Assembly (NCBI GenBank): GCA_024243835.1
Contig: JALPMN010000570.1
Coordinates: 1-20,796, forward strand
Reading direction: 5' to 3'
DNA: 20,796 nt
From: Enteropsectra breve
Lineage: Eukaryota; Microsporidia
The notes under the pieces were generated by a model. It was not told the origin of the DNA, ran no database searches, and worked only from the letters and a program-made list of their open reading frames with translations. The position numbers were made by a program, and so were the translations under genes. Positions 2,295-20,796 of this stretch are shown in pieces. Every line of letters begins with the position of its first letter. Within the stretch, counting starts at the first letter, position 1.

Positions 2295-2813
2295 TTAAAA
2301 TGAAGATACTGATGGATTATAAGGAGCAACTGCAAATGCATGCAGACTCATCAAAAGGAACATACCAAACTGCAATACGAGAAGAGCCTTGGCCGTGATA
2401 AGAACAGTCTTGTCCACGAGCTGAAAGATGCAGAGGGCCTTTATGGTGCTGAAGTAAAGTATATAGAGCAGGGGCCAGCTGATATCTAGAGGGCCAATTT
2501 TAATATCTGCGATGCTTATGAAATACAGAATATTCAGAATTTGGCCCTGTGTTTCCATCCTTAATAGCCATTGAGTGTCTTTTAACACCAGGCTTACGAT
2601 AGCCATGATGAAAATAGGACAGAAAAGCCGAAATATAAAGTAATGAAAGCTAAAATCGTAGAGATTCTTTACGAACTGCTCGAACGAAGGGATGGCAGAG
2701 TGAGAAGTTTCGTTTATATTGCAGAGGCGGAAGAATTGAGTTATGGTAGGACTACCTTGATACCATCGTTTATATTGCGCGAATATTCCTCTTTTTTTAT
2801 TGTCAATAGCCAT
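2295..2813 (-). CDS. Degenerate long-form member of the four-pass membrane protein family
   Basis: This 172-aa protein is a distant paralogue of the tandem family at 4.4-9.9 kb. Residues 9-57 line up with the long-form cytoplasmic segment: a GIFAQYKRWY stretch, SPTITQFFRL, then SFEQFVKNLYDF (43-54), which matches the family motif before the first membrane helix. Hydrophobic segments at about 59-78, 91-105, 112-133 and 138-159 agree with four membrane passes, and LMSLHAF (154-160) corresponds to the LIHA tail motif. It lacks the first 40 or so residues of its relatives. There is no CCC element before the ATG, and the reading frame stays open about 25 codons upstream without another ATG. It may therefore be a 5'-truncated pseudogene or a gene with a different promoter. 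Confidence 0.55.
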   Translation of the reverse strand: MAIDNKKRGIFAQYKRWYQGSPTITQFFRLCNINETSHSAIPSFEQFVKNLYDFSFHYFIFRLFCPIFIMAIVSLVLKDTQWLLRMETQGQILNILYFISIADIKIGPLDISWPLLYILYFSTIKALCIFQLVDKTVLITAKALLVLQFGMFLLMSLHAFAVAPYNPSVSSF

Positions 2814-3199
2814 ATAAAGGAGGTTTAAGGTAGCAGCTTTGTTTGTGTGTTGAAAAGCTGCAGAATAATATTTTCTATAGCTAGCTTATAAGCTTAAGAT
2901 ATTAAGTGAAACAAGAAATCACATTTATTTTTGAATGCATTGTAATTTCAAAGTAAAATATAATGAAGATGGGCTGGTTTATAAAAGTATTTAGCTCTTA
3001 ATAGATCTGTGTTGTAAAGAATGGGGATTAACTTAAAACAAGGAGTATTATATGGGATTAACCAGATATAGAGATGAGCTTTATAAATGTCATATTAAAG
3101 TATATTAAAATAACAGTTAGTGTTAAAATAATGGATATCTTCTATAAGTGATGCATTGTGTGATTATTTGAAACTCTAAAATATTTCACCCCAGATCAA
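2814..3199. other. Intergenic stretch upstream of Hop2
   Basis: I see no gene. Only very short open frames occur (for example ATG near 3053, 19 codons). The last 15 bases carry CCCC at 3189-3192, the start element of the gene at 3200. Confidence 0.55.
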
Positions 3200-3889
3200 A
3201 TGGCGAAAGAGTCAAAGGATGTATCAAAAGAGGAATACAGACAGAATAGAGACACTGTTTACACATATTTCTACTACGCAAACAGGCCAGTTGCCCTATC
3301 GGAGGTAGTCCTGCAGTTCAAAACTATTAAAAAATCGGTTGTTGAGAAAATACTCGGTGACTTGGTCAGCAAAGAAAAGATAATGGCGAAACTTCTTGGT
3401 AAAAGCAAGTTTTACTGTCTGGCACAAGACATGGAGTACAGGATAGAGGAAGAGGAGGGATATAACGATGATATCGATGCCCAGATGAAGGAGCAGAATG
3501 GCAGTTCATCCGGAAAGGACGGTGAGGACGAGAAGACACTGCGCTACCTGCGATGGAAACTCAACAACCTTAAAGAAATACGCAATGTTTTGTGGAAGGA
3601 GAACAGCGCACTCAGCGAGGAGATAACGGGCTATGAAAATGAGCTGAGTGTTGATGAACTGAAGCATGCGATTGAGAATATGAAAAAAATAGTGCAGGAG
3701 AATGAGGGGGCAGAAGAGATTAAAGTTGTGGATGAGAATGCGATGGAACAGAAGAGAAAGGAACATGCTGCAATCAAAAAGATAAACTCAGTGAGAAAGA
3801 AAATATTTAAAGAAATAGTGGATGGTGTTTCTGAAGGGATTGGCTGCAAGTCCAAGGAGCTGATGGAGGACGCAGGAATTGAGCTTTGA
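3200..3889 (+). CDS. HOP2: Meiotic recombination protein Hop2 (PSMC3IP/TBPIP family)
   Basis: Hop2 works with Mnd1 as a heterodimer that helps Dmc1 and Rad51 carry out strand invasion between homologous chromosomes in meiosis. The 229 aa match the family's architecture and usual length (about 217 in human). A winged-helix DNA-binding domain spans about 15-75 and contains the NRPVALSEV element and the GKSKFYCLAQD strand that parallels GKQKIYFADQD of human PSMC3IP. An acidic linker (82-111) is followed by leucine-zipper coiled coils at about 112-170 and 183-210. The C-terminal cap RKKIFKEIVDGV...MEDAGIE parallels the family's final helices. CCCC lies 8-11 nt upstream of the ATG. No Mnd1 gene is in this window. 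Confidence 0.9.
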   Translation: MAKESKDVSKEEYRQNRDTVYTYFYYANRPVALSEVVLQFKTIKKSVVEKILGDLVSKEKIMAKLLGKSKFYCLAQDMEYRIEEEEGYNDDIDAQMKEQNGSSSGKDGEDEKTLRYLRWKLNNLKEIRNVLWKENSALSEEITGYENELSVDELKHAIENMKKIVQENEGAEEIKVVDENAMEQKRKEHAAIKKINSVRKKIFKEIVDGVSEGIGCKSKELMEDAGIEL

Positions 3890-4430
3890 AACAAAGAGAA
3901 TACTAAAATGATTTTTTGATAGAAAAGAACATAATTTATGTTTTCCTATAGAATGTGCTTGGTTAATGTTAGAACAATATGAGCATTATTAAATTTTAAT
4001 AGTAAAATGTGGTTATAAAGGAAGTAGGACTTGTTCTAGCTGTGTTTATTGCGAGCAAATATCAACTATGTCTAACTCTATTAAAAGTTCTTTTATAAAG
4101 CATCTTTTTATAAAATGAAATGAAAGGGATGAACCATCCTCTCAACACTGGACGATTTATTTATATCTTATTTAAGTGTATTAAAGCTTATTAAAACATG
4201 AATATTTCATAAAGAGATTTAAATTTGTCGTAAAAAAGTTTTCATTCGTTAAAGAGGCGATATTCTTGTTCAAAATAGTATAGATCAGTTATAGCCCGCT
4301 GGAGCAATGATCCTTAGAGTAGATATTTTTACTTTATAGCTTTCGTTCTTTTTTATACGTTGTATTTATAAAATATTTTATTTATGCTTTTCTAAATACC
4401 AATAATAAAAAACTTTGTTTTACTGTCAAT
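3890..4430. other. Intergenic stretch between convergent genes
   Basis: This AT-rich gap lies between the 3' ends of Hop2 (+) and the first short-form family gene (-). No open frame of note, RNA gene or repeat was recognised. Confidence 0.55.
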
Positions 4431-4435
4431 TTATT
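4430..4435 (-). terminator. Poly(A) signal AATAAA overlapping a stop codon
   Basis: On the minus strand the last codon and stop read GAA TAA ATT, so AATAAA begins inside the final codon and includes the stop codon of the membrane gene at 4958-4431. Confidence 0.6.
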
Positions 4436-4958
4436 CAAGATCGGAGGACTTGGCTTTTGGAGTTGCGAAGCAAGCATGTATTAGTTGTAGGATTCCTAAC
4501 ACGATTCGCACAATGCAAGCAGGTGTAAAAATATACACAAGATTAATAATTGAATCATCAGCTACACCATAACTAATTGCCATAACTATAACTATAAGCA
4601 TTACAGCAATAAAGTTTATGCCAAATACTCCAATCTTGGAACTGAACAATCCTTTAAGGCTTATAGACGTTAAAATTATGGTGCCAATGACCAACACCCA
4701 TTTAAAACTATTTTCTATTAGACAAATAAAAAAAAACAAGACAATAATATCAATAGCTAGTATAGCCTTAAACCATTCTTTTTTGTAGTCTTCAAGATTT
4801 TGGAGCACTTTTTGAAAGAAACTCATCTCTTGCTCTGCGAACACGGGGCGCCCAGTATTTGATTTTGGAGTACTCATATCAATTATATTATCGTTAGTAC
4901 CACTTATCCCTGTAGTATCTTCTGGGACATTCTTCTTTTCACCACTAATTCCGAGCAT
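4431..4958 (-). CDS. Four-pass membrane protein, family short form 1
   Basis: This is the best-preserved short-form member of the family (175 aa, function unknown). Residues 1-44 are polar and disordered, with NIID and PK.NT words shared with the copy at 7569. MSFFQKV.QNLEDYKKEWF (45-63) is the family motif. Hydrophobic segments follow at about 65-81, 86-104, 112-130 and 137-166. The last ends RIVLGILQLIHACFATP, almost identical to the relic at 6930-7010. No signal peptide is seen, and the N-terminus is presumably cytoplasmic. On the minus strand an AAATTTTTA run and CCCT lie directly before the ATG, which fixes the start. The stop codon is embedded in AATAAA. I recognise no named domain; comparison with microsporidian-only families such as DUF2463 would be useful. 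Confidence 0.82.
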   Translation of the reverse strand: MLGISGEKKNVPEDTTGISGTNDNIIDMSTPKSNTGRPVFAEQEMSFFQKVLQNLEDYKKEWFKAILAIDIIVLFFFICLIENSFKWVLVIGTIILTSISLKGLFSSKIGVFGINFIAVMLIVIVMAISYGVADDSIINLVYIFTPACIVRIVLGILQLIHACFATPKAKSSDLE

Positions 4959-5165
4959 AGGGCGAGTAAAAATTTAAGTTTTATATTTTTAGCCCCTTTA
5001 TTTATAGCCAAGTGTCAATAAAATCAATGTATTAAAGAAGAATTATTTCATATGCTGCATCACTATATATGCCGTATGCTTCTTATTGGCTCTCTTAAAG
5101 GAGTTTCGAGAATTATGATTTAAAAGGAAGTTAAAAATTTTTTAAAAATCTTATACTGTCTTAAA

Positions 5166-5291
5166 GATTAGAAATAATGCTATGAAGATTAGAAATAATG
5201 CTATGAAGATTAGAAATAATGCTATGAAGATTAGAAATAATGCTATGAAGATTAGAAATAATGCTATGAAGATTAGCAACAATGCTATGAA
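5166..5291 (+). repeat. Minisatellite: six tandem copies of a 21-bp unit
   Basis: The unit GATTAGAAATAATGCTATGAA occurs at 5166, 5187, 5208, 5229, 5250 and 5271. The first five copies are identical and the sixth has two changes (CAAC for AAAT region). A partial GATA follows. Because 21 is divisible by three, one frame on each strand stays open through the array, but no gene context supports coding. The near-perfect identity implies recent expansion. Confidence 0.97.
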
Positions 5292-5886
5292 GATACAATA
5301 AAATTCTGTGCTTTCGTGAGTATTACATTTATAATTTCAAAATAAAAGACCCTTTATTTTATCAAATTGGAAAATGTTTTAAAGATGAATTGCTTTAAAA
5401 AAAACATCTAACTATTTTGTGATCAAAATGCTGAGTTTTAAACACGAATATGTTTAAGATGTCCATAATAAACAATGAATGAAAACCCCTTTCTATACAT
5501 AAAAATGCGTGCCTCTTATTTTTTATATGCATGTCTCACCGCTTATTATGAAAAAAGCAATATATTTGATCTTTTCTGAAATAGTATTTCTCTATTTTTA
5601 AGATAATCTGAAAATGCAAATCCACTGCTTAAGCTGAATCCAAAAGAAATGTAGAGAATAGAGAGGCAAAAATGCACTATTAGTCCTGCTTAAGATAGTT
5701 AAAACCTTCGGGACAAAGTTTGTCCTGATGATTTTCGTTGGACTAAATTGATAAGATGCCATCAGAAGCTCTTGATAGCTAAGACTCTCTGTGGTGTTTG
5801 CTAAAAGCTATTTTTCGTGAATAAGTCGCTGTTTATAGACCAAGGATTAATATTACATAGATAAAAGCCTATATTGTTGTATTGTA

Positions 5887-5892
5887 TTTATT
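5887..5892 (-). terminator. Poly(A) signal AATAAA
   Basis: AATAAA on the minus strand lies 3 nt past the stop codon of the membrane gene that ends at 5896. Confidence 0.5.
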
Positions 5893-5895
5893 AAT

Positions 5896-6408
5896 TTATG
5901 ATTTATATTCTATAGTCGCTAAGCAGGCATGTAGGAGTTGTGAAAATCCGAATACGATTCGCACACAACACGCTGGTTCAAAGATTAATGTTAATTCTAT
6001 ACCATAAATTACATGTCCCGAGTATATTAAAAGAAAACATATAACAAGAAGTAGCGTAACAATGAAATTCAGGGGAAACAACCCAATCATAGAATTGCTT
6101 ATTCCAACAAAGCTTATAAACGTTAAAATTAAGGTTCCAAAGCTCGTCACTAGAGGAAAAATATTTCCGGTTAATATAGTATATCCAGCCACTGCAATAA
6201 TATCAAAAATGAACATAATGGTGAACCACCATCTCTCATAATCATTGAGATTTTTGCACACTTTTTGGAAGAAGCTCAACTTTTCTGTATTTGCAATATG
6301 ATTGGTATAAGAATTTGGCACAGTTGCATCATTGGTGTTTTTCCTAATAACAGCATTCACAGGAGTGCTATTTGGGGCATCATTCTTTTCAACATTAATG
6401 AGTAGCAT
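5896..6408 (-). CDS. Four-pass membrane protein, family short form 2
   Basis: I start this gene at the ATG at 6408 (170 aa). The frame is open 8 codons further to an ATG at 6432, but only the inner ATG has CCC immediately before it and an AAAATTTTT run behind that, as in its relatives. The polar N-terminus (1-45) is followed by LSFFQKVCKNLNDYERWWF, the family motif. Four hydrophobic segments follow, the last with CCVRIVFGFSQLLHACLAT. It is most similar to the copies at 4958 and 7569. Function is unknown; a membrane channel, adaptor or host-interface protein are all possible, and the sequence does not decide. Confidence 0.8.
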   Translation of the reverse strand: MLLINVEKNDAPNSTPVNAVIRKNTNDATVPNSYTNHIANTEKLSFFQKVCKNLNDYERWWFTIMFIFDIIAVAGYTILTGNIFPLVTSFGTLILTFISFVGISNSMIGLFPLNFIVTLLLVICFLLIYSGHVIYGIELTLIFEPACCVRIVFGFSQLLHACLATIEYKS

Positions 6409-6424
6409 GGGTATTAAAAATTTT
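6409..6424 (-). promoter_or_regulatory. CCC start element deciding the start at 6408
   Basis: On the minus strand the bases read AAAATTTTTAATACCC directly before ATG. The same AAATTT-then-CCC arrangement precedes most genes here, so the ATG at 6408 is preferred over the one at 6432. Confidence 0.7.
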
Positions 6425-6590
6425 AATTGCAAAACGATGACGCTTATTATTTTTTATATGCCGATAAATTTTAAATACAGAAATTAAGTGATATTAATAA
6501 ATATCAACATATAAAACTTTTATGGAGGGGCCATGCTTCTCGCTAAGCATAATATAAAGAAGAGACTAGCTTGTTTCACCATAGAATTTG

Positions 6591-6890
6591 TTATTTTAAA
6601 AAGTGGTTGTATGTGAAGACCCACGTAGGGACAGTGCGTTTGGTATGCGGTCAGTGTACATAGTAATCCAAATGCCGCCAATACCCATTTTCAGAATCAT
6701 ACAAGACATATGAATAGGCCTTATAATCGAAGCCCGAAGAGGGTATGATCGGACTGTTGATCAGAACTAAGTTATCGATAAAAATGAGGTTTACTTTCGG
6801 GATGGCCTTATGTAAAATCAAAAATTTATTTTTTATATTTTTTAAAACAATTTTTCTTGTAAAAGTTGCTACTTTAATACCAAAGCAACT
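6591..6890 (-). pseudogene. Relic C-terminus of a sphingomyelinase/endopolyphosphatase-type metallophosphoesterase
   Basis: On the minus strand a frame is open from 6890 to 6654 (79 codons, no ATG), then a TGA at 6653-6651, then another 19 codons to a TAA at 6593-6591. The translation contains INSPIIPSSGFDYKAYSY, then VLYDSENGYWRHLDYYVH, and after the stop PTWVFTYNHFLK. This order resembles the end of acid-sphingomyelinase-like phosphodiesterases: an SPS.TP..G element, a Y..Y/D strand, a DY..Y..L element, then P.W..EY.F. No metal-binding motifs are present, so the catalytic part is gone. The piece is wedged directly downstream of a broken family member. The GC content is higher than the surrounding spacer. 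The family assignment rests on remembered patterns only. Confidence 0.45.
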
Positions 6891-6929
6891 CTAATATCAA
6901 GAAACAGCTTTATTTTAGTTGAAATTTGG

Positions 6930-7569
6930 TTAAATATCTAAGGGCTTTGCCACTGGAGTTGCGAAGCAAGCATGTATTAGTTGCAAGACTCCGCTTACAA
7001 TTCGCACTTAGCAAGCTGTTAGAAAAAGGAACGAGATTTCTAATTGCGAAGGACCCAACTTGTAATAATCTATAATTATACATGTTGTTATATAATAACA
7101 TTCTTTAAAAATTTTACTAAAAATTTTATGATAACGGATACCCATGCAGTATCATGATAACAGTCAATTAAATAATTCTTCTAAAGACAACAATACATAT
7201 AACCAAAAGAGTAGTAGTAATAAAGTTCAAGGTAAATAGTCTAATCTTGGAATAATTTATTCCAATATAGCTTATAAACGTTAATATAAAGGCGCCAAAA
7301 GACATTACTAAAAGGCCAGGATCTTTCGCAAATATGGGAAAGATAATCACAGCCATAACATCTAAAAAGAATATAGCATCGAACCAGCCTCTCTGATAAT
7401 CATAAAGATTTTGTCTTACTTTTTGGCAGAAACTCATCTTTTGTTCCGTAACGGTCGGTTGTTCGGTATTTGGTTTTGGAACGGGCAAATCAATGATATT
7501 ATCTCTTGCTGCAGCGTTCTCTGGATTATCTGACGGAGCAATTTTCTTCTCTTCCTTAAATTCGGGCAT
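6930..7569 (-). pseudogene. Broken short-form family member (four-pass membrane protein)
   Basis: The 5' part is intact: ATG at 7569 with CCCC immediately before it, then 133 codons to a TAA at 7170-7168. It includes MSFCQKVRQNLYDYQRGWF and three hydrophobic segments. The protein then ends prematurely in FRRII, about 45 residues short of its relatives. The missing tail is still visible downstream: on the minus strand 7037-6930 reads FLFLTAC, a TAA stop (7010-7008), then VRIVSGVLQLIHACFATP...PLDI and a normal stop at 6932-6930. This tail matches the copy at 4958 closely. A frame break with extra sequence (about 7040-7170) separates the two parts. It could be expressed as a truncated three-pass protein. 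Confidence 0.8.
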
Positions 7570-8052
7570 GGGGCTTTAAAGATTTCGTTTTTAAAATGAT
7601 TTCTCCTTTATTATTTTCATCATTTGTAACATTTGAATATAGAAATCAACTGATTTGCAAAGCTTTCCATGTGAAAAGCACTTTAAGTGAGAATTATTTT
7701 ACTAAAGCAAACTATGGAACATAGACAGACATGCCACTTTATGGGCTGTGTCGCAAGCTAAATATTTTGACTTCAATTATTTGGATGGATAGCTACCAAC
7801 AAACGGATTTATAAAGGTTTTGATTAATTAAATGCAGCCGCATATACATATGCAGATGCTCGTGTCATACACATAAAATTGGTAGCAAGCCATTTATTCT
7901 TAAAAATATAACCGTATTTTCCGGCATAAAGCCCGCGGGCCATCTGAACAAAAAATTACAATTTTAAAAAATTAAAATGGAGCCCTTTCCATCATCTATC
8001 AAATAGTTTTACAATAATATCAGTTTAAAACTTATAATCTGAGCGAATTTAT
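7570..8052. other. Gap between family members
   Basis: Bases 7600-7648 form the conserved upstream block of the copy at 7569. A 10-bp all-GC palindrome lies at 7931-7940 next to a 39-codon minus-strand frame (7943-7824). Otherwise nothing is recognised. Confidence 0.5.
7600..7648 (-). promoter_or_regulatory. Conserved upstream block of the broken family copy
   Basis: Read on the plus strand it runs from TTCTCCTTT to GAATATAGAAATCA. The same order of words occurs upstream of the copy at 9903 (TTTCTCCTTT ... AAATATTGAAATCA), so the promoter region was duplicated with the gene. Confidence 0.5.
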
Positions 8053-8053
8053 T
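8048..8053 (-). terminator. Poly(A) signal AATAAA overlapping the gene end
   Basis: On the minus strand the gene end reads ATT TAA ATAAATTC, so AATAAA starts in the last base of the stop codon. The copy at 9265 has the identical arrangement. Confidence 0.6.
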
Positions 8054-8691
8054 TAAATATCTATTGACTTGATGATTGGCGTTGTAATGGCTGCATGTAT
8101 AAGTTGTGCGAAGATGAAAATAAGGTGCAGCAATGTAAATGGGACAAGAGCAACAAACTCTCTTTTAGGATAGGAAGGTCTTGACATCAGATTAATCGTG
8201 AAACGAATAAAAAGAGGCAACACTAACAGAGAGTTAACTAAGATTAACCTTACGTTAAAAGAACGAATCTTGAAATTTCCAATGCCTAGTAAGTTTAAGG
8301 CTGTTACTACTAGAAAAATAGGAATACAATAGAAGCCCCTTAAACGGCTGACAAGGAACACTATCGTAAGCAACGCGGTATCTGCTATTAGCATAGCCAG
8401 GAACCAGTTCACTTCAAAATCAACAAGATTTTTGTGAAATATGTCATAAAAGCTCATTTCTGGCAGCAGTATCGAGTTGCCCCGCAGTTTAAGACACTCT
8501 TTGAAAGAAGGAGCAGATTTATATATTTTCAAGTATCGCTCTTTCATTTTTCCAAGAAATGATTTATGAGTTGCTTTTATATCATCCAGATTGTTTTGAG
8601 TGCTCTCTTGGACAATGGGCTCTAATGGAAATTTCTCTATAGCAGGATTATTCTCCGGGACTTCCTTTCTTTCACCGCTAAATCCGAACAT
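8053..8691 (-). CDS. Four-pass membrane protein, family long form 1
   Basis: This 212-aa protein has the same length as its neighbour at 9903-9265 and is clearly its paralogue. The N-terminus MFGFSGERKEVPEN resembles that of the short form at 4958. Residues 43-88 form a conserved cytoplasmic segment absent from the short forms: KSFLGKMKERYLKIYKSAPSF, then KLRG, LLPEMSFYDIFHKNL. The family motif ends DFEVNW (91-96). Hydrophobic segments lie at about 97-115, 120-138, 147-168 and 179-204, the last with QLIHA. The final loop is basic rather than acidic as in the neighbour. CCCC sits 1 nt before the ATG. Function is unknown. Confidence 0.85.
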   Translation of the reverse strand: MFGFSGERKEVPENNPAIEKFPLEPIVQESTQNNLDDIKATHKSFLGKMKERYLKIYKSAPSFKECLKLRGNSILLPEMSFYDIFHKNLVDFEVNWFLAMLIADTALLTIVFLVSRLRGFYCIPIFLVVTALNLLGIGNFKIRSFNVRLILVNSLLVLPLFIRFTINLMSRPSYPKREFVALVPFTLLHLIFIFAQLIHAAITTPIIKSIDI

Positions 8692-9264
8692 AGGGGATTG
8701 TAAATTCTCGTTAATATAGCTCTCCCCTTTTAGTGATTGGTTGATTTTTATAACGCTTCAAATTAAACGATGAGATTCTAATTTATTTGTAGGGGAAAAA
8801 TAATAATTTTTTCAAACATTGCCATTTATAGCATGAGTGAAATGCATGCTGCTAGGCCTTCATACAGAAAGAGTTAAAACATAAGTATTGTGTTAGCTTT
8901 ATGCTCTTGAAATGATAAAAATGGACCAAAAAGCTCGGACAAATGGCATCATTGCACAAAATAAAGGAGTTGATTTAGCAACGCAAAATGAATTAAAAAA
9001 ATTTTAGAAAGCAATGTCAGTAGACAGCAAGCGCGTAGCAAAAATGCTCCGAATTACATAATAAATCTGATATCGTTTGGTTTTACTTTTAATATTGATA
9101 AAATATATCAGCTATATGCGTCGATCTAATATTATTCTTCTTGCTAAGTATTTAACCTTTATCCGCCATAATAGCCGATTAGCTTTTTTATTGCCTGTTT
9201 ATTGTGAACAAAAAGTTTAAACCGATGCATTTAAAAAAATCTCAGAATAAGTTGTTGAATTTAT
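8692..9264. other. Gap between the two long-form copies
   Basis: The left edge (8719-8770) is a conserved upstream block. A plus-strand frame from ATG 8912 codes 31 residues and stops in a run of seven A and four T; a second frame then stays open to 9128. This is compatible with a decayed short gene but no homology is visible, so it is not called. Confidence 0.45.
8719..8770 (-). promoter_or_regulatory. Conserved upstream block, long form 1
   Basis: The plus-strand words TCTCC, TTTT, TGATTGG, TGATTTTT, ATAACGCTT and AAAT occur in the same order and spacing at 9936-9990 upstream of long form 2. The block lies roughly 30-80 nt before the ATG. Confidence 0.6.
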
Positions 9265-9265
9265 T
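9260..9265 (-). terminator. Poly(A) signal AATAAA overlapping the gene end
   Basis: The same ATTTAAATAAATTC context is seen at the end of long form 1, so the 3' flank was also conserved after duplication. Confidence 0.6.
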
Positions 9266-9903
9266 TAAATTTCAATTGGTGCGGCACGTGGAGAGATGAT
9301 ACAAGCATGGAATGTTTGTACAAGAATGTAAATTAGATGCAAATAGGGCACAAAATTTCTCACATGAAAGTCATCTTCATCGTCATCGCCATCTTCATTA
9401 CCACTAATGCCAGTACACACTAAAAATTGAATCACTGCTCCAATAGCATTAAGCACAAACAGCCTTGTTTTGTAGGAACCAATCTGGAAATTACCAATTG
9501 CCACGAAATTAAATATCGTTATTGCAATAAAGCAGAAGAAGCTGCCCAGCGCCTTCGCTCCAAACATGCAGAACCACAAAAAGAGGACTGAAACATCTAT
9601 TGCCAGCATAACCAAAAACCACATAACCTCGAAATCATAAAGATTCTTTTTCATGATCTCATAAAAGCTCATCTCTGGCAGTATTATAGCAGATCCACGC
9701 AATTTTGTGAACTCAGCGAATGATGGGGCGTCTTTGAAGATTTTAGTGTATTTTTCTTTCATTTTTCCAAAGAAAGACTTTTGCTCTTCTGGAGCTTCTG
9801 TATTTGCAACGGCGGCGGTCGTATCAACTATATTTTCTGCAACTCCCTTATTTTCGGTATTTTTCTCTGGCGCATTATTATTCATTTCATCACTGACGGT
9901 CAT
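9265..9903 (-). CDS. Four-pass membrane protein, family long form 2
   Basis: This 212-aa member is the outermost copy of the array. A polar N-terminus (1-40, rich in Asn, Glu, Ala, with the NIVD word of its relatives) is followed by KSFFGKMKEKYTKIFKDAPSF (42-62), KLRG, and LPEMSFYEIMKKNLYDFEVMWF (75-96). Hydrophobic segments lie at about 94-113, 119-137, 146-166 and 184-204. The loop between the third and fourth is strikingly acidic (GDDDEDD, 172-178), which is unique in this family here. The tail QTFHACIISP parallels QLIHA..TP of the others. A CCC element lies 3 nt before the ATG. No catalytic residues are recognised. Confidence 0.85.
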   Translation of the reverse strand: MTVSDEMNNNAPEKNTENKGVAENIVDTTAAVANTEAPEEQKSFFGKMKEKYTKIFKDAPSFAEFTKLRGSAIILPEMSFYEIMKKNLYDFEVMWFLVMLAIDVSVLFLWFCMFGAKALGSFFCFIAITIFNFVAIGNFQIGSYKTRLFVLNAIGAVIQFLVCTGISGNEDGDDDEDDFHVRNFVPYLHLIYILVQTFHACIISPRAAPIEI

Positions 9904-10692
9904 TTTGGGCTATAAAATCTTTTCCTATAAAACAGTTTCTCCTTTTTTCTGATTGGATGATTTTTGATAACGCTTTAAATATTGAAATCATTTCTTCAAG
10001 AAGCCCAAATCTATTATTAATCACATTAAATACTATTAAGTATTTTCTATTAGGTTTTCTTTTTAGAGCTGCGTTTCTCTGATCGCATCTTGATTTTAAT
10101 GATTGATCTTGTTAATCCCCCTTTATTTTCAACACTCGAATCTGTTCTAAAAGTTAGCAACGGGTACAAAATAAACAATAATGCATAGACAAATTTTTAT
10201 CGCAAGACAAACTACCCATGTGATAAAACGGGAGACCTCTTCTTTAACCGTTCGTTTCAGCCTATGTCCTCTTCCATAGTATATAGCCCTTACCCATATG
10301 ATACTTTGCTTTACAAACTAATGAGCTGATAATAAGAGTAACGGCTTTGGTCTTAATTATCCAATATTAAAAAATAAAATAAAGATTTTCTCTTATTTAA
10401 AAATAAAAGCTTCTTTTAATGTTATTTATTTCAATCAGCAGTATAAAATCATCAAAGCACATGGAATTTATTGCCTGTGTTAACAATAGTCTATGCTCAT
10501 ATATTTATGCTGTAAGGAACTTGGTGCCAGTTCTATTTTAATCGCTATTATTTTCTTTCAACTGAATCTAAAAGGTTATCTAAGAAGTAAAAATGAAACG
10601 CATTTCTTAACCATGATTTAAGTTTGTTAAAGTCTATGATGTACACTCATTAGAAGGCATTCAATTTAATCTTAGTGAAAAGTATATGCAAT
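9904..10692. other. Long gap right of the membrane family
   Basis: The first 90 bases are the promoter of the copy at 9903. On the minus strand between about 10365 and 10150 two overlapping frames together give a plausible membrane-protein fragment without an ATG (see findings). No gene is called. Confidence 0.45.
9936..9990 (-). promoter_or_regulatory. Conserved upstream block, long form 2
   Basis: This is the counterpart of 8719-8770 and 7600-7648; its end matches the latter best and its middle the former. It is likely a core promoter or a transcript leader kept through duplication. Confidence 0.6.
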
Positions 10693-12594
10693 TTAAAAAG
10701 CTGTCCATGGGGGATACGAAACAAAGAAATCTCCAAGGCTTAAATAGTACGTTACAGCTCCACAAATACCAATTATAATACATATACAGAGTACTCTCTT
10801 TTTTATCATTTGAATATCTTCATGAGATATAGACTGCAGGAAATAAAACAGCTTTTTTTGATTTTCTCCAACATTATCCTTTAAAGGGCCAATGCTTTCA
10901 TTTTCGCTGCAATTCTCCTCTGCATTATTCGTTGTAACATCTTTATCAAGTATTTCAGAATTTTCATTTATACCGACTGGTTGAAATGGTTGCACTGCAT
11001 TATTCATAGAGACTGCTTTTCTCTTCTTATGCTTCTTTTTCTTAAGAGTTCTTCTTTTTGCTGTCTTTACACGCACACTTTCTTTTACCTTTCTGATCCC
11101 AGTTTCTGAAGATTTGCTCTCTTTTTTATCATTTTTGGAAGGATTCACTTTCTGTCCCAAAGAATCATTCGAACTGCTGATTTCATCTTCAGCACTATAC
11201 TCTCTAATGCTACTTACATCTTCAGCACTATACTCCCTAGTGCTACTTACATCTTCAACATTGTCATCGTCAATAGAATTTGCATCTGAATCGCAATTTG
11301 TTTCATAAAGATCCTTCCTAAACATCTCATAAACATCTTCCTTTACAGAAGGCTTTATGTATTGCTTATACACACTGCTGTGAGATTTATACAGAACTTC
11401 ATCCAGCAGAACCACTATCCTGAGGATCTTTCCAAAGGTAAAATTTATGTAAATCTTTCCAGCAATAAGCTTTCTTTTCTCAATTCTACATGTTTCCTTT
11501 CCAAACTCTGATTCCTTCATAAATTTATTAAAATTAAAATACTGAGTTTCTTCCGCTTTAATTATTTTATTTCGTTCGATAAACAGGTTCTTGACAGGCT
11601 TCAGGTTCAGAAAATTCCAGAAATGTTTTTTCATTAGCCCGTAGAGAAAATACTCGGCATATTTTATTCTCTTACCTTTATTAATATTAACATCATTAAG
11701 TCCACCATAGGCGTTGTAAAACGTTTCTATGCTGCTGGGCTCGTTATATCTCTCGTTAGGGTCTCTGTTTACCTTGGGTTCTTTATTTCTCTTCTTGCAG
11801 TTTGACCACAGATAAAAATCAAACGCACGTATCATTTTAGAGGTACAGGAAACAAATTTATCACTAACAACATCATAGTAAAATACATTTTGCTTATTTG
11901 TAGTTTTTTTAGCACGCAAAAATGTTAGCAGCGCGCCCGCCTCTGATACAAAGACCCCTCCCACACACTGGATAATTTTAAAGACAAAATCTTGTCTTGT
12001 CTTGTATCTTATAGTGCGCTTTCCAGTTGTTTTGTTAGTGAATGTTTCATAATTATCGAAGAATTTTGCCTTTTTTAGCACATTTTCTTTAAAATTGTCT
12101 TTTTTATGCTCAAAAGCTGTGTTCTCAGGCAGATCATCTCCATAATGGCATTTGGCACCTTCACTGCCCATGTTTGAGCTATGAATGCTAGCATCATCGC
12201 CTATTTTCACATTTTTTGAAGTTCTCTTTGATAATACTTTTTCATCATTAATATCTTTTGAATGACTGTTCTTCCCGTGAATAGTGCGCCTCTTGCAGTA
12301 TTTCTTCTTGCGCTCATGAGATACATTGCTGTTAAGCACATCATTGCATTCTATTCCTGCTTTTACCTTATCTTCCAGTGCATCTAAGTTTATTTCTTTT
12401 CCATTTAAAGTTTGAATATTATTTATATCATGGCAATAATTATAGTTGTTGGGGCCATTAAAAACGCTGTTGTAAGACGGCGCAACACAGACATCTGGAT
12501 TCTGAATCAGAGATGTTACTGTGCAAAGGAGTGCCTGTGGTGCTACTAGAATCATTAATTCTCTAATTGTTCGTTTTACCGGTACTACAAGCAT
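10693..12594 (-). CDS. Large lineage-specific protein with a C-terminal membrane anchor
   Basis: I do not recognise this 633-aa protein. The N-terminus has a hydrophobic stretch at about 13-31 that could be a signal peptide or anchor. Residues 60-200 are polar and basic. A more ordered region follows (about 205-435), with hydrophobic and aromatic residues such as FKIIQCVGGVF and FWNFLNL. Then come an acidic Ser-rich tract with two copies of an 11-residue repeat (EDVSS.REYSA), a very basic tract (KRRTLKKKKHKKRK), another polar stretch, and a membrane helix at about 601-620 followed by a 13-residue tail. AAATTTGCCCAT lies directly before the ATG. The architecture recalls large membrane-tethered microsporidian families such as InterB (DUF1609), but I see no diagnostic match. 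Confidence 0.8.
   Translation of the reverse strand: MLVVPVKRTIRELMILVAPQALLCTVTSLIQNPDVCVAPSYNSVFNGPNNYNYCHDINNIQTLNGKEINLDALEDKVKAGIECNDVLNSNVSHERKKKYCKRRTIHGKNSHSKDINDEKVLSKRTSKNVKIGDDASIHSSNMGSEGAKCHYGDDLPENTAFEHKKDNFKENVLKKAKFFDNYETFTNKTTGKRTIRYKTRQDFVFKIIQCVGGVFVSEAGALLTFLRAKKTTNKQNVFYYDVVSDKFVSCTSKMIRAFDFYLWSNCKKRNKEPKVNRDPNERYNEPSSIETFYNAYGGLNDVNINKGKRIKYAEYFLYGLMKKHFWNFLNLKPVKNLFIERNKIIKAEETQYFNFNKFMKESEFGKETCRIEKRKLIAGKIYINFTFGKILRIVVLLDEVLYKSHSSVYKQYIKPSVKEDVYEMFRKDLYETNCDSDANSIDDDNVEDVSSTREYSAEDVSSIREYSAEDEISSSNDSLGQKVNPSKNDKKESKSSETGIRKVKESVRVKTAKRRTLKKKKHKKRKAVSMNNAVQPFQPVGINENSEILDKDVTTNNAEENCSENESIGPLKDNVGENQKKLFYFLQSISHEDIQMIKKRVLCICIIIGICGAVTYYLSLGDFFVSYPPWTAF
11186..11251 (-). 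repeat. In-frame 33-bp tandem duplication inside the 633-aa gene
   Basis: Units 11186-11218 and 11219-11251 are nearly identical and encode EDVSS(T/I)REYSA; a third, partial unit follows at the start of the next codons. The repeat keeps the reading frame and lies in the acidic Ser-rich tract. Confidence 0.88.
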
Positions 12595-14959: not shown

Positions 14960-14961
14960 TA
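14960..14961 (+). other. TA target-site duplication, left
   Basis: TA directly precedes the terminal inverted repeat; the matching TA is at 15850-15851. Confidence 0.75.
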
Positions 14962-14986
14962 CAGTGAAATCCGTTTATAAGGGATT
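14962..14986 (+). repeat. Left terminal inverted repeat of the pogo-like element
   Basis: This begins CAGTGAAATCCG and continues TTATAAGGGAT. It pairs with the right terminus at 15825-15849. Confidence 0.85.
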
Positions 14987-15824
14987 CGGTTATAAGGGAC
15001 GAAATAAAAATTTTCCATTTTTTCTATTGATTTTGAGCCAAAAAATCCGGTTATAAGGGATTCGGTTATAAGGGACGGTTTTTTAAAAATCTGTGAATAA
15101 TTTTCCTAATATTATGACAGCGAACAATAGAAAAAAGTTAAAAATAGAAGGAAAAAGTAAAATTTCTCGAAATTGAGAATGGAACTAAGCAAAGTTCTTC
15201 AATTTTACATGGAATTGCAATCTATTCATTTATAAGTTGCATTGAAAAATAGACATTTCATATTAGAGGCGCATGAAGTAACACGGCAACATGAATAAAA
15301 ATAAAACTACAGCTTTGGAATTGCTTAATAAAAAGCTTCTTTTATAGCTTAGAGAAATGAAAATTGTGGACACTCCTCGTTCATAACCAATAATGTCAGG
15401 AAAAGTAATTGAAGTTGAAAAAAAAAGTTTTATTGATTTTAAATGGTAAACGGATGGATTAATAAGTTTGAGGCCACGTCCTCAATCACTTTTAGAATTT
15501 TATGAGGTGAAATCTAGGTACCAGAAGAGAAATTGATGAGACCTTTGTTATTTAAAACGTCATTTTATAAAGAGATTTTATTAAATTGTTCTTCTTTTTT
15601 ATATCTATGATAAAACAAGAAGTTTTGTTATATAATTGATCTTACAATATATCAGACCAAATTAAAATTTATACTTATTTATGAATATACAACAACTTAG
15701 CTAGATTTTTGATTTTATATTAAAGTTTTTTCTTAAAATCTTATTCAAATATAATTTTGGTTTTTTATTTAAACCGGTTATAAGGGAAAATCGGTTATAA
15801 GGGACAAAATTTCCGGTCCCAAAA

Positions 15825-15849
15825 AATCCCTTATATGCGGATTTCACTG
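15825..15849 (-). repeat. Right terminal inverted repeat of the pogo-like element
   Basis: Read on the minus strand it begins CAGTGAAATCCGCATATAAG, differing from the left end mainly at the two bases after ATCCG. Confidence 0.85.
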
Positions 15850-15851
15850 TA
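15850..15851 (+). other. TA target-site duplication, right
   Basis: TA directly follows the right terminal inverted repeat and matches 14960-14961. Confidence 0.75.
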
Positions 15852-18286: not shown

Positions 18287-18937
18287 AAAATATAAAATTT
18301 ATTTAGAAAATATACAGTAGTTTTATCTTCAATGATACGAGTAATTTTGTGGATATATTTGTTATACAATATTTTAGAGTGTATTTCCTATAATTTGCGG
18401 ATTGTAGCCTTTATATTCAAAAAAATTAAAGTATAATTTCTAGAGCAAAGTATAAGGCTATATATACTAGTGTTGAATATAGGAATAAAACTAGGCATAC
18501 AAATTATATAAACTAAAGATAATTCTTTGGAGGATTAAAATAACGAAGATTTTTTATATAGTCTAGTCGAGTAATAATGAATCTGATTTTTAACATTTGG
18601 GATTAGCACTAGATCTTTTGTTTTAAGCAAGGATTTGGAAGCATTAAACCGCCTACATTAAACAGTAAATTATAATATTCAATAGTTTAAATGAATTAGG
18701 AATTTAAAAGTTCATGTCTATTGCTCAAACATTATTAGCTTAATTTTTATGTGACTTCATGTAGAATAATAGAGAAGCTATGGATTTTTTGAAATATTTA
18801 AAATGTCATTTAAAATTCATTAATAACAGTGATGTAAGAAGTAAAATTAGTTAAAGTTCTTATAACATTCGCTACATCCCATATATTAACATCTGCTAAT
18901 CAAAATTAATATTCTGGAAAAGCTCCCGAAAATTTTC
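18287..18937. other. Intergenic stretch between two plus-strand genes
   Basis: No open frame, tRNA or repeat stands out in these 650 AT-rich bases. The last 15 carry CCC at 18925-18927, the start element of the next gene. Confidence 0.55.
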
Positions 18938-20796
18938 ATGAAACATCAAAAAACTGATCAAATAGCTATTGATAGCAACAGAGAGGAAGAACTGTCCGTT
19001 TGTAAAGAAGGCCTGCACTACTCAAACGATAGCGATAAGATTTCTTCCCGGATGGATATTATTAGCTTAAAAGAATTGATGGCGAATGAGAACACCATAG
19101 AAATGGACCGCACATTTGTGAATAGTAGTGATATGGACAATAGTTTTATGAGTGATACTGTTAATTCTACATTTCAGTTCGGCCACAACAGTGATAGTTT
19201 CAAGAGCAGAACTTCTTGTGCAAATAATGCAAAAAGTTCATACAGAAAAAGGATCCTGGGCAAGAACAAGCCCTCTAGGAGGTCCAAATCCGTAAAAAGA
19301 TACTTGCTTCTTATAGTACTTTTATTATTGTTGATGCTATTATCTCTGTTGTTCTTAAGATGGAATATAATGCCAGAACTCAGTAAAAGGAAGTTTTCTA
19401 CTGAAAGCCAAAATAAGCAATGTGCAAAATTTGGAAGTACAAAGGAGCAAGAAATAACTAATCGCCCGACTCCAGAAAATAGTCTAAAAGATGAAGTAGG
19501 TAGTGAATGTATATTGGATAGCACTTCAGATGAAATTGAGAAGAGGGTTGATGAGGACCCTCCAAAAGAAAATTACATTGAAAGTGAATATGAAGATATT
19601 CCAGAGCAGGTTGTTGTAGACGAAAAAGAAATAGTCTCTAGTGAAGATAAATCTGCTGAATTAGAACAAACATATGATTTTGAAAGTTCTGAAGAGGCCT
19701 ACTCAAATGAAGTTAATGAGCTTGAATCTAATGAGCTTGAATCTCATGAGCTCAGCAAAGAACATGAAGTTACAGTTGGAGTTGAGTATCATACTAAAGA
19801 TAAAGAACATGACAATATTTTCGAATCGGTAAAAATAGATGAAAGTACGAATGAAATGAAAGAAAAAGAAGATATAAGGGCAAGTATTCACAAGGAAACT
19901 GTGAATAATAGCGTTGTAAGTAACAATGTGGCTATTGAAAATCAGGTAATTGAGTTAATGCGAGGATTGAAAAAAAATAAGACCAAAGTTTCTAAAATAA
20001 AAACTAAGCATCTTCAAAGTAATCAAGCATCAGAAATGCCTATTAAAACCCGAAAAACTAAATCTGAATGGAAGGCCCACTCTAGCAACTTCAAGGGTTT
20101 TCGGTTCATAAAAAGTAAGGAAAGCATCTTAAATGTTATTGCAGAAACAAGTGCTAAAAAAGTAAGCGATATACAGCAGGAACATAATTCCTCCAGTAAT
20201 AAAAAGGATACTAATGAAAATAATGGAATAAGCGATATACAGCAGGATCATGATGACGCCAGTAATAAAATAAGCGATATACAGCAGGATCATAATGACT
20301 CCAGTAATAAAGAGGCTACTAATGAAAATTTAAAAAGCTTCAAATTTATGAGTGACAGTAGTGGAAATACAACTGAGTCTGGTTCTAAAAGAAATGATAA
20401 GACAAATGGTGTTGTTGGCAAGGATAAAATTAAATGTAAGATAAAGAATAAAACTAAAGGCCCGAGTAGAATTAAAATCAAAAGAACAGATTTGGAAGTC
20501 TTACATGTCGAAATGAGTGAAAAGATAGCAGATAAAAGCAAAATATCGGTTTGTTGTTGCAAGAATGATTTAATATCCAATGAAGATGCAATTCAGATTA
20601 ATGAAAATCCACATTGCAGTGAGTTAAGTGAAGAGAATACTCAAAGCATCGAAAATGCGATTTTATCCGCCGAAAGTACTGAGAGTGAGTCAAATGAAGA
20701 TTCGAGTAGCGTGAAAAGTTTAAACTTAAATGACGTATACAGAGAACCAGCCTTCACGACAGACACAGATAATTCAGGGCATACGAATCCTAAAGT
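18938..20796 (+). CDS. Large acidic single-pass membrane protein, 3' end beyond the window
   Basis: From ATG 18938 the frame is open to the last base of the window (619 complete codons plus two bases), so this is a partial gene. CCC lies 10-12 nt before the ATG. Residues 1-121 are polar and Ser-rich and end in a basic stretch (KRILGKNKPSRRSKSVKR). A strongly hydrophobic helix follows at about 122-142 (YLLLIVLLLLLMLLSLLFL). With basic residues on its N-terminal side, it most likely has its N-terminus in the cytoplasm and its long tail outside or in the lumen. The tail is rich in Glu, Asp, Asn, Ser and Lys, is probably disordered, and has short repeats: ELES/ELES-type near residue 261 and three copies of a 14-residue unit (ISDIQQ(D/E)H...SNK) at about 409-458. 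One CCC cluster of cysteines lies near 540. I do not recognise it. Confidence 0.85.
   Translation, partial: MKHQKTDQIAIDSNREEELSVCKEGLHYSNDSDKISSRMDIISLKELMANENTIEMDRTFVNSSDMDNSFMSDTVNSTFQFGHNSDSFKSRTSCANNAKSSYRKRILGKNKPSRRSKSVKRYLLLIVLLLLLMLLSLLFLRWNIMPELSKRKFSTESQNKQCAKFGSTKEQEITNRPTPENSLKDEVGSECILDSTSDEIEKRVDEDPPKENYIESEYEDIPEQVVVDEKEIVSSEDKSAELEQTYDFESSEEAYSNEVNELESNELESHELSKEHEVTVGVEYHTKDKEHDNIFESVKIDESTNEMKEKEDIRASIHKETVNNSVVSNNVAIENQVIELMRGLKKNKTKVSKIKTKHLQSNQASEMPIKTRKTKSEWKAHSSNFKGFRFIKSKESILNVIAETSAKKVSDIQQEHNSSSNKKDTNENNGISDIQQDHDDASNKISDIQQDHNDSSNKEATNENLKSFKFMSDSSGNTTESGSKRNDKTNGVVGKDKIKCKIKNKTKGPSRIKIKRTDLEVLHVEMSEKIADKSKISVCCCKNDLISNEDAIQINENPHCSELSEENTQSIENAILSAESTESESNEDSSSVKSLNLNDVYREPAFTTDTDNSGHTNPK
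20162..20311 (+). repeat. In-frame 42-bp repeats in the large acidic protein
   Basis: Copies at 20162-20203, 20228-20269 and 20270-20311 encode (V/I)SDIQQ(E/D)H then a variable pair and (A/S)SNK. Copies 1 and 3 are each followed by a short TNEN stretch, which suggests a larger compound unit. Confidence 0.88.

Follow-up and report, generated by a model that had tools for sequence, protein, structure and literature searches.

A tandemly arrayed family of membrane proteins in the microsporidian Enteropsectra breve and its possible remote kinship with PRA1/Yip3

What are the membrane proteins that are encoded side by side on one contig of Enteropsectra breve, and from which gene did they arise? 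E. breve is a microsporidian that infects nematodes (PMC10393165). We analyzed a stretch of 20,796 nucleotides from its genome (the window), which is the entire contig C67 (JALPMN010000570.1), one of the 155 contigs that make up a 3.96-Mb assembly. The minus strand of the window carries five copies of one family in an array (copies B to F) and a divergent sixth copy (A). This membrane-protein family in E. breve is real. Concerning its origin, we propose tentatively, with a probability of about 0.4, that the family is remotely related to or derived from PRA1/Yip3 and was made by tandem duplication in E. breve. PRA1/Yip3 (prenylated Rab acceptor) is a four-pass protein, which handles Rab GTPases in cell trafficking.

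Copies in the window and in the genome

The copies in the window are as follows.

2295 to 2813, minus strand: copy A, intact divergent open reading frame (ORF), 172 amino acids, paired with the copy on contig C108
4431 to 4958, minus strand: copy B, short form, intact, 175 amino acids
5896 to 6408, minus strand: copy C, short form, intact, 170 amino acids
7168 to 7569, minus strand: copy D, first part, broken short form with an early stop after 133 amino acids
6933 to 7109, minus strand: copy D, what is left of its C-terminal half, shifted to a different frame and interrupted by a stop; 46% identity to residues 116-174 of B
8053 to 8691, minus strand: copy E, long form, intact, 212 amino acids
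9265 to 9903, minus strand: copy F, long form, intact, 212 amino acids

The ORF listing thus has six minus-strand ORFs or remnants where the original prediction placed them. The copy at 2813, which had been called degenerate, is A, an intact ORF that has merely diverged in sequence. Decay of one copy in the window is real, but the decayed copy is D. The frame of D is lost: its two matched stretches are in different frames and each contains a TAA. Programmed frameshifting, an idea which came from the Yip3 case in Podospora (PMC3777964), was rejected for D because stops occur in both matched stretches besides the frame change.

The division into short (170-175 amino acids) and long (212 amino acids) forms holds. 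However, the segment that had been described as added in the long forms aligns with the N-terminal parts of A and the C108 copy. Therefore, the short copies may have lost an N-terminal segment, rather than E and F having gained one. The shared N-terminal motif is also looser than had been claimed: MSF is found in four of the six window copies (LSF in C and PSF in A), and KNL likewise in four (QNL in B and D).

Protein searches of the E. breve genome were performed with F, B, A, the C108 copy and the third C44 copy as queries; at most nine matches were obtained per query, and counts for large families are lower bounds. These searches revealed a second array on contig C44, with three full-length tandem copies, and one further divergent full-length copy on contig C108, which corresponds to the E. 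breve record ENBRE01_0060 (172 of 172 residues matching). The copies with noted positions are listed below.

L022 (stretch of contig C44), 5226-5741: C44 copy 1, tandem
L022, 5956-6483: C44 copy 2, tandem
L022, 6971-7507: C44 copy 3, tandem
L025 (contig C24), 482-996: broken relative of the C108 copy, at the start of the contig and less than 500 bases from its end

The C24 copy consists of two pieces, 76% and 73% identical to the C108 copy, in different frames and with one stop. In total, the family comprises at least nine intact copies and at least two broken copies (D and the C24 copy).

Relationship among the copies

All 45 pairs of ten aligned members were compared, with 200 shuffles per pair. 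The ten pairs among B, C, D, E and F gave z values of 10.3 to 60.8, and the pairs inside the eight array copies (B to F and the three C44 copies) gave 10.3 to 91. The values for A against B to F were 4.2 to 6.1, and the A-B score was exceeded by the best of its shuffles. When A or the C108 copy was compared with the array copies, z ranged from 2.5 to 8.1 and some pairs were not above the best shuffle. A and the C108 copy gave a z value of 12.0, and the search of the genome with A matched the C108 copy at E 1.2e-5. A profile of the eight array copies scored A at 20.5 bits and the C108 copy at 29.3 bits, neither of which was reached by any of 1,999 hydropathy-keeping shuffles. Local hhalign joined the array copies with the group of A and the C108 copy (probability 88). 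Thus, similarity beyond shuffled controls, as the original prediction supposed, is seen in all pairs of B to F and, for A, clearly through the profile.

In the tree, E and F (82/85), B, C and D (94/96) and the three C44 copies (89/92) form clusters, and A and the C108 copy, both on long branches, are set apart from the rest (97/96). The proposed expansion agrees with this tree, in which the long C67, short C67 and C44 copies each cluster, although only one of the seven inner branches, that of A and the C108 copy, is starred. Nine members, including the open part of D, were further compared by nonsynonymous (dN) and synonymous (dS) rates. Amino acid identity among them is 20-63%. Wherever dS was finite, dN stayed below it (36 pairs, many of them saturated), and no sign of positive selection was seen in this comparison. 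For example, dN and dS were 0.24 and 0.72 for C44 copies 1 and 2 (the closest pair), 0.53 and 0.96 for B and C, and 0.40 and 1.10 for C and D.

Searches of databases and literature

The family had been called undescribed-looking, and within the databases covered this holds: no family in Pfam or NCBIfam passed or neared its cut-off. In Pfam, no family was over cut-off for any of the ten members, and NCBIfam gave nothing better than E 0.024. Apart from PRA1, Pfam listed just one family for two of the members, Hol_Tox, which covers 16 residues in D. No match to a broadly conserved family was confident, the link to PRA1/Yip3 being a possible one. A sequence search of the PDB gave no match for PRA1 and one chance-level match for the family profile (E 0.77).

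A protein search with F returned F alone. With the ten-row alignment as query, B, ENBRE01_0060 and a 103-amino acid piece of A were found, and C, E, F and the C44 copies were missed. Relatives outside E. breve were absent from this protein search, which also missed known copies and foreign PRA1. Because the search misses true relatives, the absence of foreign ones lends little weight to the idea that only E. breve has the family.

In the available titles and abstract openings of the literature on microsporidia with PRA1 or Rab GTPase and on the E. breve genome, no description of the family was found; it may nonetheless be among the families in the supplementary list of PMC10393165. The word PRA1 is absent from the main text of PMC10393165, as far as this text was available. 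In one paper's expression table, as available, Nosema ceranae has a single "Prenylated Rab acceptor 1-like protein" of 154 amino acids. In the available parts of two other microsporidia papers, "PRA1" occurs only in strain names.

Comparison with PRA1/Yip3

PRA1 was chosen for testing because the first Pfam scan listed it for B at E 0.43. The E. breve genome has one clear PRA1, at 27044-27559 of contig C44 (L028 2045-2560), 11.5 kb from the C44 array. It scores 39.6 bits with PF03208, for which the cut-off is 30.1. Its record, ENBRE01_1055, has 161 amino acids and a reading from the first ATG has 171; the two are 100% identical over 94% of the longer reading. Scans of viral and prokaryote contigs and of phages gave no further PRA1s. 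A protein search that used the E. breve PRA1 as query recovered no other protein, although PRA1 is widespread in eukaryotes (PMC9804665). Profiles were prepared from four PRA1s (that of E. breve and three others) or from the three others alone.

The four-PRA1 profile gave a mean of 3.51 bits on the ten family rows, as compared with about -1.4 (standard deviation 0.8-0.9) for column shuffles that preserve the hydropathy pattern. With each of three block sizes, none of 200 such shuffles reached the real mean. In global profile-profile alignment of the family with PRA1 by hhalign, 1 of 200 shuffles reached the real score with the E. breve PRA1 included and 2 of 200 without it. Five of the ten members were then scored individually, and B and C108 carry most of the PRA1 signal. 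B was reached by 6 of 2,000 shuffles with the E. breve PRA1 in the profile and by 7 of 2,000 without it. C108 was reached by 2 of 2,000 with the E. breve PRA1, and C by 22 of 2,000 with it and 615 of 2,000 without it. In direct comparison, C108 and the E. breve PRA1 gave a z value of 5.1 (1 of 300 shuffles) and were the only pair that stood out. Five other ORFs with at least three hydrophobic segments scored at most 2.0 with the four-PRA1 profile and at most 2.4 with the three-PRA1 profile, a set too small for calibration. The power of these tests is low, since the three other PRA1s barely separate even the E. breve PRA1 from shuffles (1 of 200 reached its score; HHalign probability 7 to 18%).

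Several results weigh against a relation to PRA1. When the Pfam PRA1 model was applied to the whole genome, only the canonical gene was found. Pfam lists PRA1 for two of the ten members, at E 0.38 and 0.43, and not for the other eight; the best scores, 10.8 bits for C108 and 10.6 for B, are below the PF03208 cut-off and no member passes. Moreover, 1 of 20 shuffled decoys matched the Pfam PRA1 model at E 0.017, better than every real copy, and we therefore rejected the sub-threshold Pfam matches as evidence. In the reverse direction, the profile of the eight array copies misses the E. breve PRA1 (its score is matched by 1,656 of 2,000 shuffles), and the other three PRA1s were not found by family profiles. 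The ten-row result weakens to 15, 15 and 21 of 200 when the E. breve PRA1 is left out of the profile, and C108 falls to 841 of 2,000. For A, the counts were 281 of 2,000 when the E. breve PRA1 was in the profile and 1,453 when it was not, and for F 180 and 1,436, which is chance level or close to it. Of the 40 single pairs, 37 were reached by more than 15 of 300 shuffles. The N-terminal segment does not rise above chance, the comparison with the E. breve PRA1 excepted (19 and 26 of 1,000). Local HHalign probabilities between the family and PRA1 were 6% or less. Taking both sides together, the sequence comparisons are consistent with a possible remote kinship with PRA1, not with membership.

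Topology and structure models

The proteins likely have four hydrophobic segments, as had been predicted. However, the hydropathy cut-off merges neighbouring segments in several copies and gives three in C108, and the segment fit of the family was set to find four. In this four-segment fit, the loop between transmembrane segments 3 and 4 (TM3 and TM4) has a negative charge in B, C, F, C44 copies 1 and 2 and C108, a charge of zero in A and C44 copy 3, and a positive charge in E.

The model of B (six sequences, mean predicted local distance difference test score (pLDDT) 57) has a short N-terminal helix and four separate long helices. In contrast, the E. breve PRA1, modelled from one sequence (mean pLDDT 65), shows two short helices and two very long ones (50 and 54 residues), with a small two-strand turn between the very long helices. 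This difference in helix pattern, between models of low confidence, also counts against a relation to PRA1, as does a Foldseek search of the PDB in which neither low-confidence model had a match at E 0.001. Foldseek of the B model against viral models likewise gave nothing at E 0.001. Structure search was set aside as evidence on the fold, the models being too poor, and the low-confidence models of B and PRA1 neither confirm nor refute a shared fold.

An element upstream of the array copies

In all eight array copies, CCC starts 3-6 bases 5′ of the ATG; for the third C44 copy, the second ATG, which matches the N-termini of the other copies, was used as the start. In addition, AAAGG(A/G) starts 36 to 42 bases before the ATG in six of the eight, and is absent in C and C44 copy 2. 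The elements in the window are as follows.

4993 to 4999, minus strand: AAAGGGG of B, starting 41 bases before the ATG; CCC at 4960-4962
6409 to 6411, minus strand: CCC of C, directly 5′ of the ATG; no AAAGG(A/G) upstream
7603 to 7609, minus strand: AAAGGAG of D, starting 40 bases before the ATG; CCCC at 7570-7573
8724 to 8730, minus strand: AAAGGGG of E, starting 39 bases before the ATG; CCCC at 8693-8696
9939 to 9945, minus strand: AAAGGAG of F, starting 42 bases before the ATG; CCC at 9907-9909

For comparison, 29 ORFs were chosen by hand, including A, C108 and PRA1; not all of them are verified genes. The hexamer was present in 2 of the 29 between -80 and -15 and in none at -36 to -42, and CCC was found within 12 bases of the ATG in 10. 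For the wider region, the enrichment of the hexamer gave a Fisher p of 0.0003, which is optimistic because the motif was picked after viewing the same sequences. The AAAGG(A/G) hexamer is a candidate for shared control of the arrays.

Other features of the window

Between B and C, at 5153-5289, there is an array of 21-base repeats with the unit AAGATTAGAAATAATGCTATG. The stretch 5000-5600 around these repeats has a 49-base match (86%) at 12456-12504 of contig C93. An ORF at 3200-3889 encodes a Hop2/TBPIP winged-helix protein, above the Pfam cut-off; Hop2/TBPIP is a meiotic recombination factor. Of two large ORFs, that at 10693-12594 has no Pfam family over cut-off, and that at 18890-20794 continues past the contig end. 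The region 14960-15851 (892 bases) has inverted 27-base ends, which begin with TACAGTG and are 93% complementary, and a 35-base direct repeat near its left end. It resembles a small degraded DNA transposon.

Discussion

If the family descends from PRA1, the simplest guess is that its members act on Rab placement or membrane shape inside the parasite. The hydrophilic N-terminus and the NL.D(Y/F)...(W/Y)F stretch would be on the cytosolic face, two membrane hairpins would follow, and a short tail would return to the cytosol. The proteins would be located in the parasite's own endomembranes, where they might tune the placement of Rabs or shape the membranes themselves. One GDI gene of E. breve scores over cut-off, and the genome has ten Ras-type GTPase loci, some of which may not be Rabs; partners therefore likely exist. 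For PRAF1 (mammalian PRA1), a role as GDI-displacement factor acting on Rab9 has been reported, and Arabidopsis has nineteen members of the PRA1 family (PMC9437294). A bolder form of this idea, in which tandem amplification under a single start-site element yielded PRA1-derived proteins that sit at the parasite-host boundary and recruit or redirect Rab GTPases of the worm gut cell, seems to us improbable.

The original prediction suggested the parasite surface or host interface as a possible location, and a microsporidian family with no relation to PRA1, at the parasite plasma membrane or exported and serving at the host interface, as has been proposed for other large gene families of microsporidia, is a possibility that we take seriously though with some doubt. 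In microsporidia, Enteropsectra included, families that are limited to one clade and rich in membrane or signal segments are numerous (PMC10393165), the copies lie in tandem arrays with a decayed member, and relatives outside E. breve were absent from the collection searched, weak as this search was. However, a host-interface role finds no support in the proteins themselves: inspection by eye showed no leader peptide, and dN stays below dS wherever dS is finite, so that on average there is no sign of positive selection. Nine intact copies were counted, as compared with the at least ten required in the available text of PMC10393165, and there is some statistical pull to PRA1. Even this pull might come from the hydropathy pattern alone, if the family is an endogenous membrane family of other ancestry (for instance reticulon/REEP-like, Yip1-like or spore-stage). 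The shuffled decoy picked by the Pfam PRA1 model and the failure of the reverse profile searches speak for this origin. Nevertheless, we regard it as rather unlikely, because decoys that keep hydropathy mostly score lower in the one-way tests and Hol_Tox, which is short in D, is the one other family that Pfam lists for two members. That the copies are functionless decaying duplicates, as the broken D and C24 copies might suggest, is very improbable: nine copies keep full ORFs despite deep divergence, dN is below dS, and the upstream element is retained, at an almost constant distance, in six array copies including D.

For most clade-restricted membrane families of microsporidia, the origin is not known. 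If the proposed PRA1 origin is true, tandem duplication and rapid divergence turned a housekeeping gene of cell trafficking into such a family, and Rab handling becomes a function to test. Should the link to PRA1 not hold, the family is still small and bounded, has both intact and broken copies and a common upstream element, and can serve to study how families of this kind begin.

Finally, the family can be compared with known systems. DUF2463 is a microsporidian multi-pass family. Its suggested kinship with the present family did not hold in Pfam, where DUF2463 was missing from the matches of all ten members at E up to 10. The EbrLGF1 and NemLGF families of PMC10393165 are, like this family, paralogous membrane proteins of a nematode-infecting microsporidian. 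In the available text those families have at least ten members, whereas nine intact and two broken copies were found here. On this copy number, membership in EbrLGF1 was judged unlikely; another named family of that paper is possible. Compared with PRA1, the family has an extended N-terminus, and its stretch is mostly NL.D(Y/F)...WF, whereas N..(Y)(F/Y)..NY is found in the three PRA1s from outside E. breve that were compared. In a MAFFT alignment with the E. breve PRA1, an N a few residues ahead of TM1 and an H close to the end match up, although aligners always yield an alignment. With PRA1/Yip3/PRAF (PF03208), the family shares a similar length, a hydrophilic N-terminus, a hydrophobic C-terminal two thirds and a short tail.

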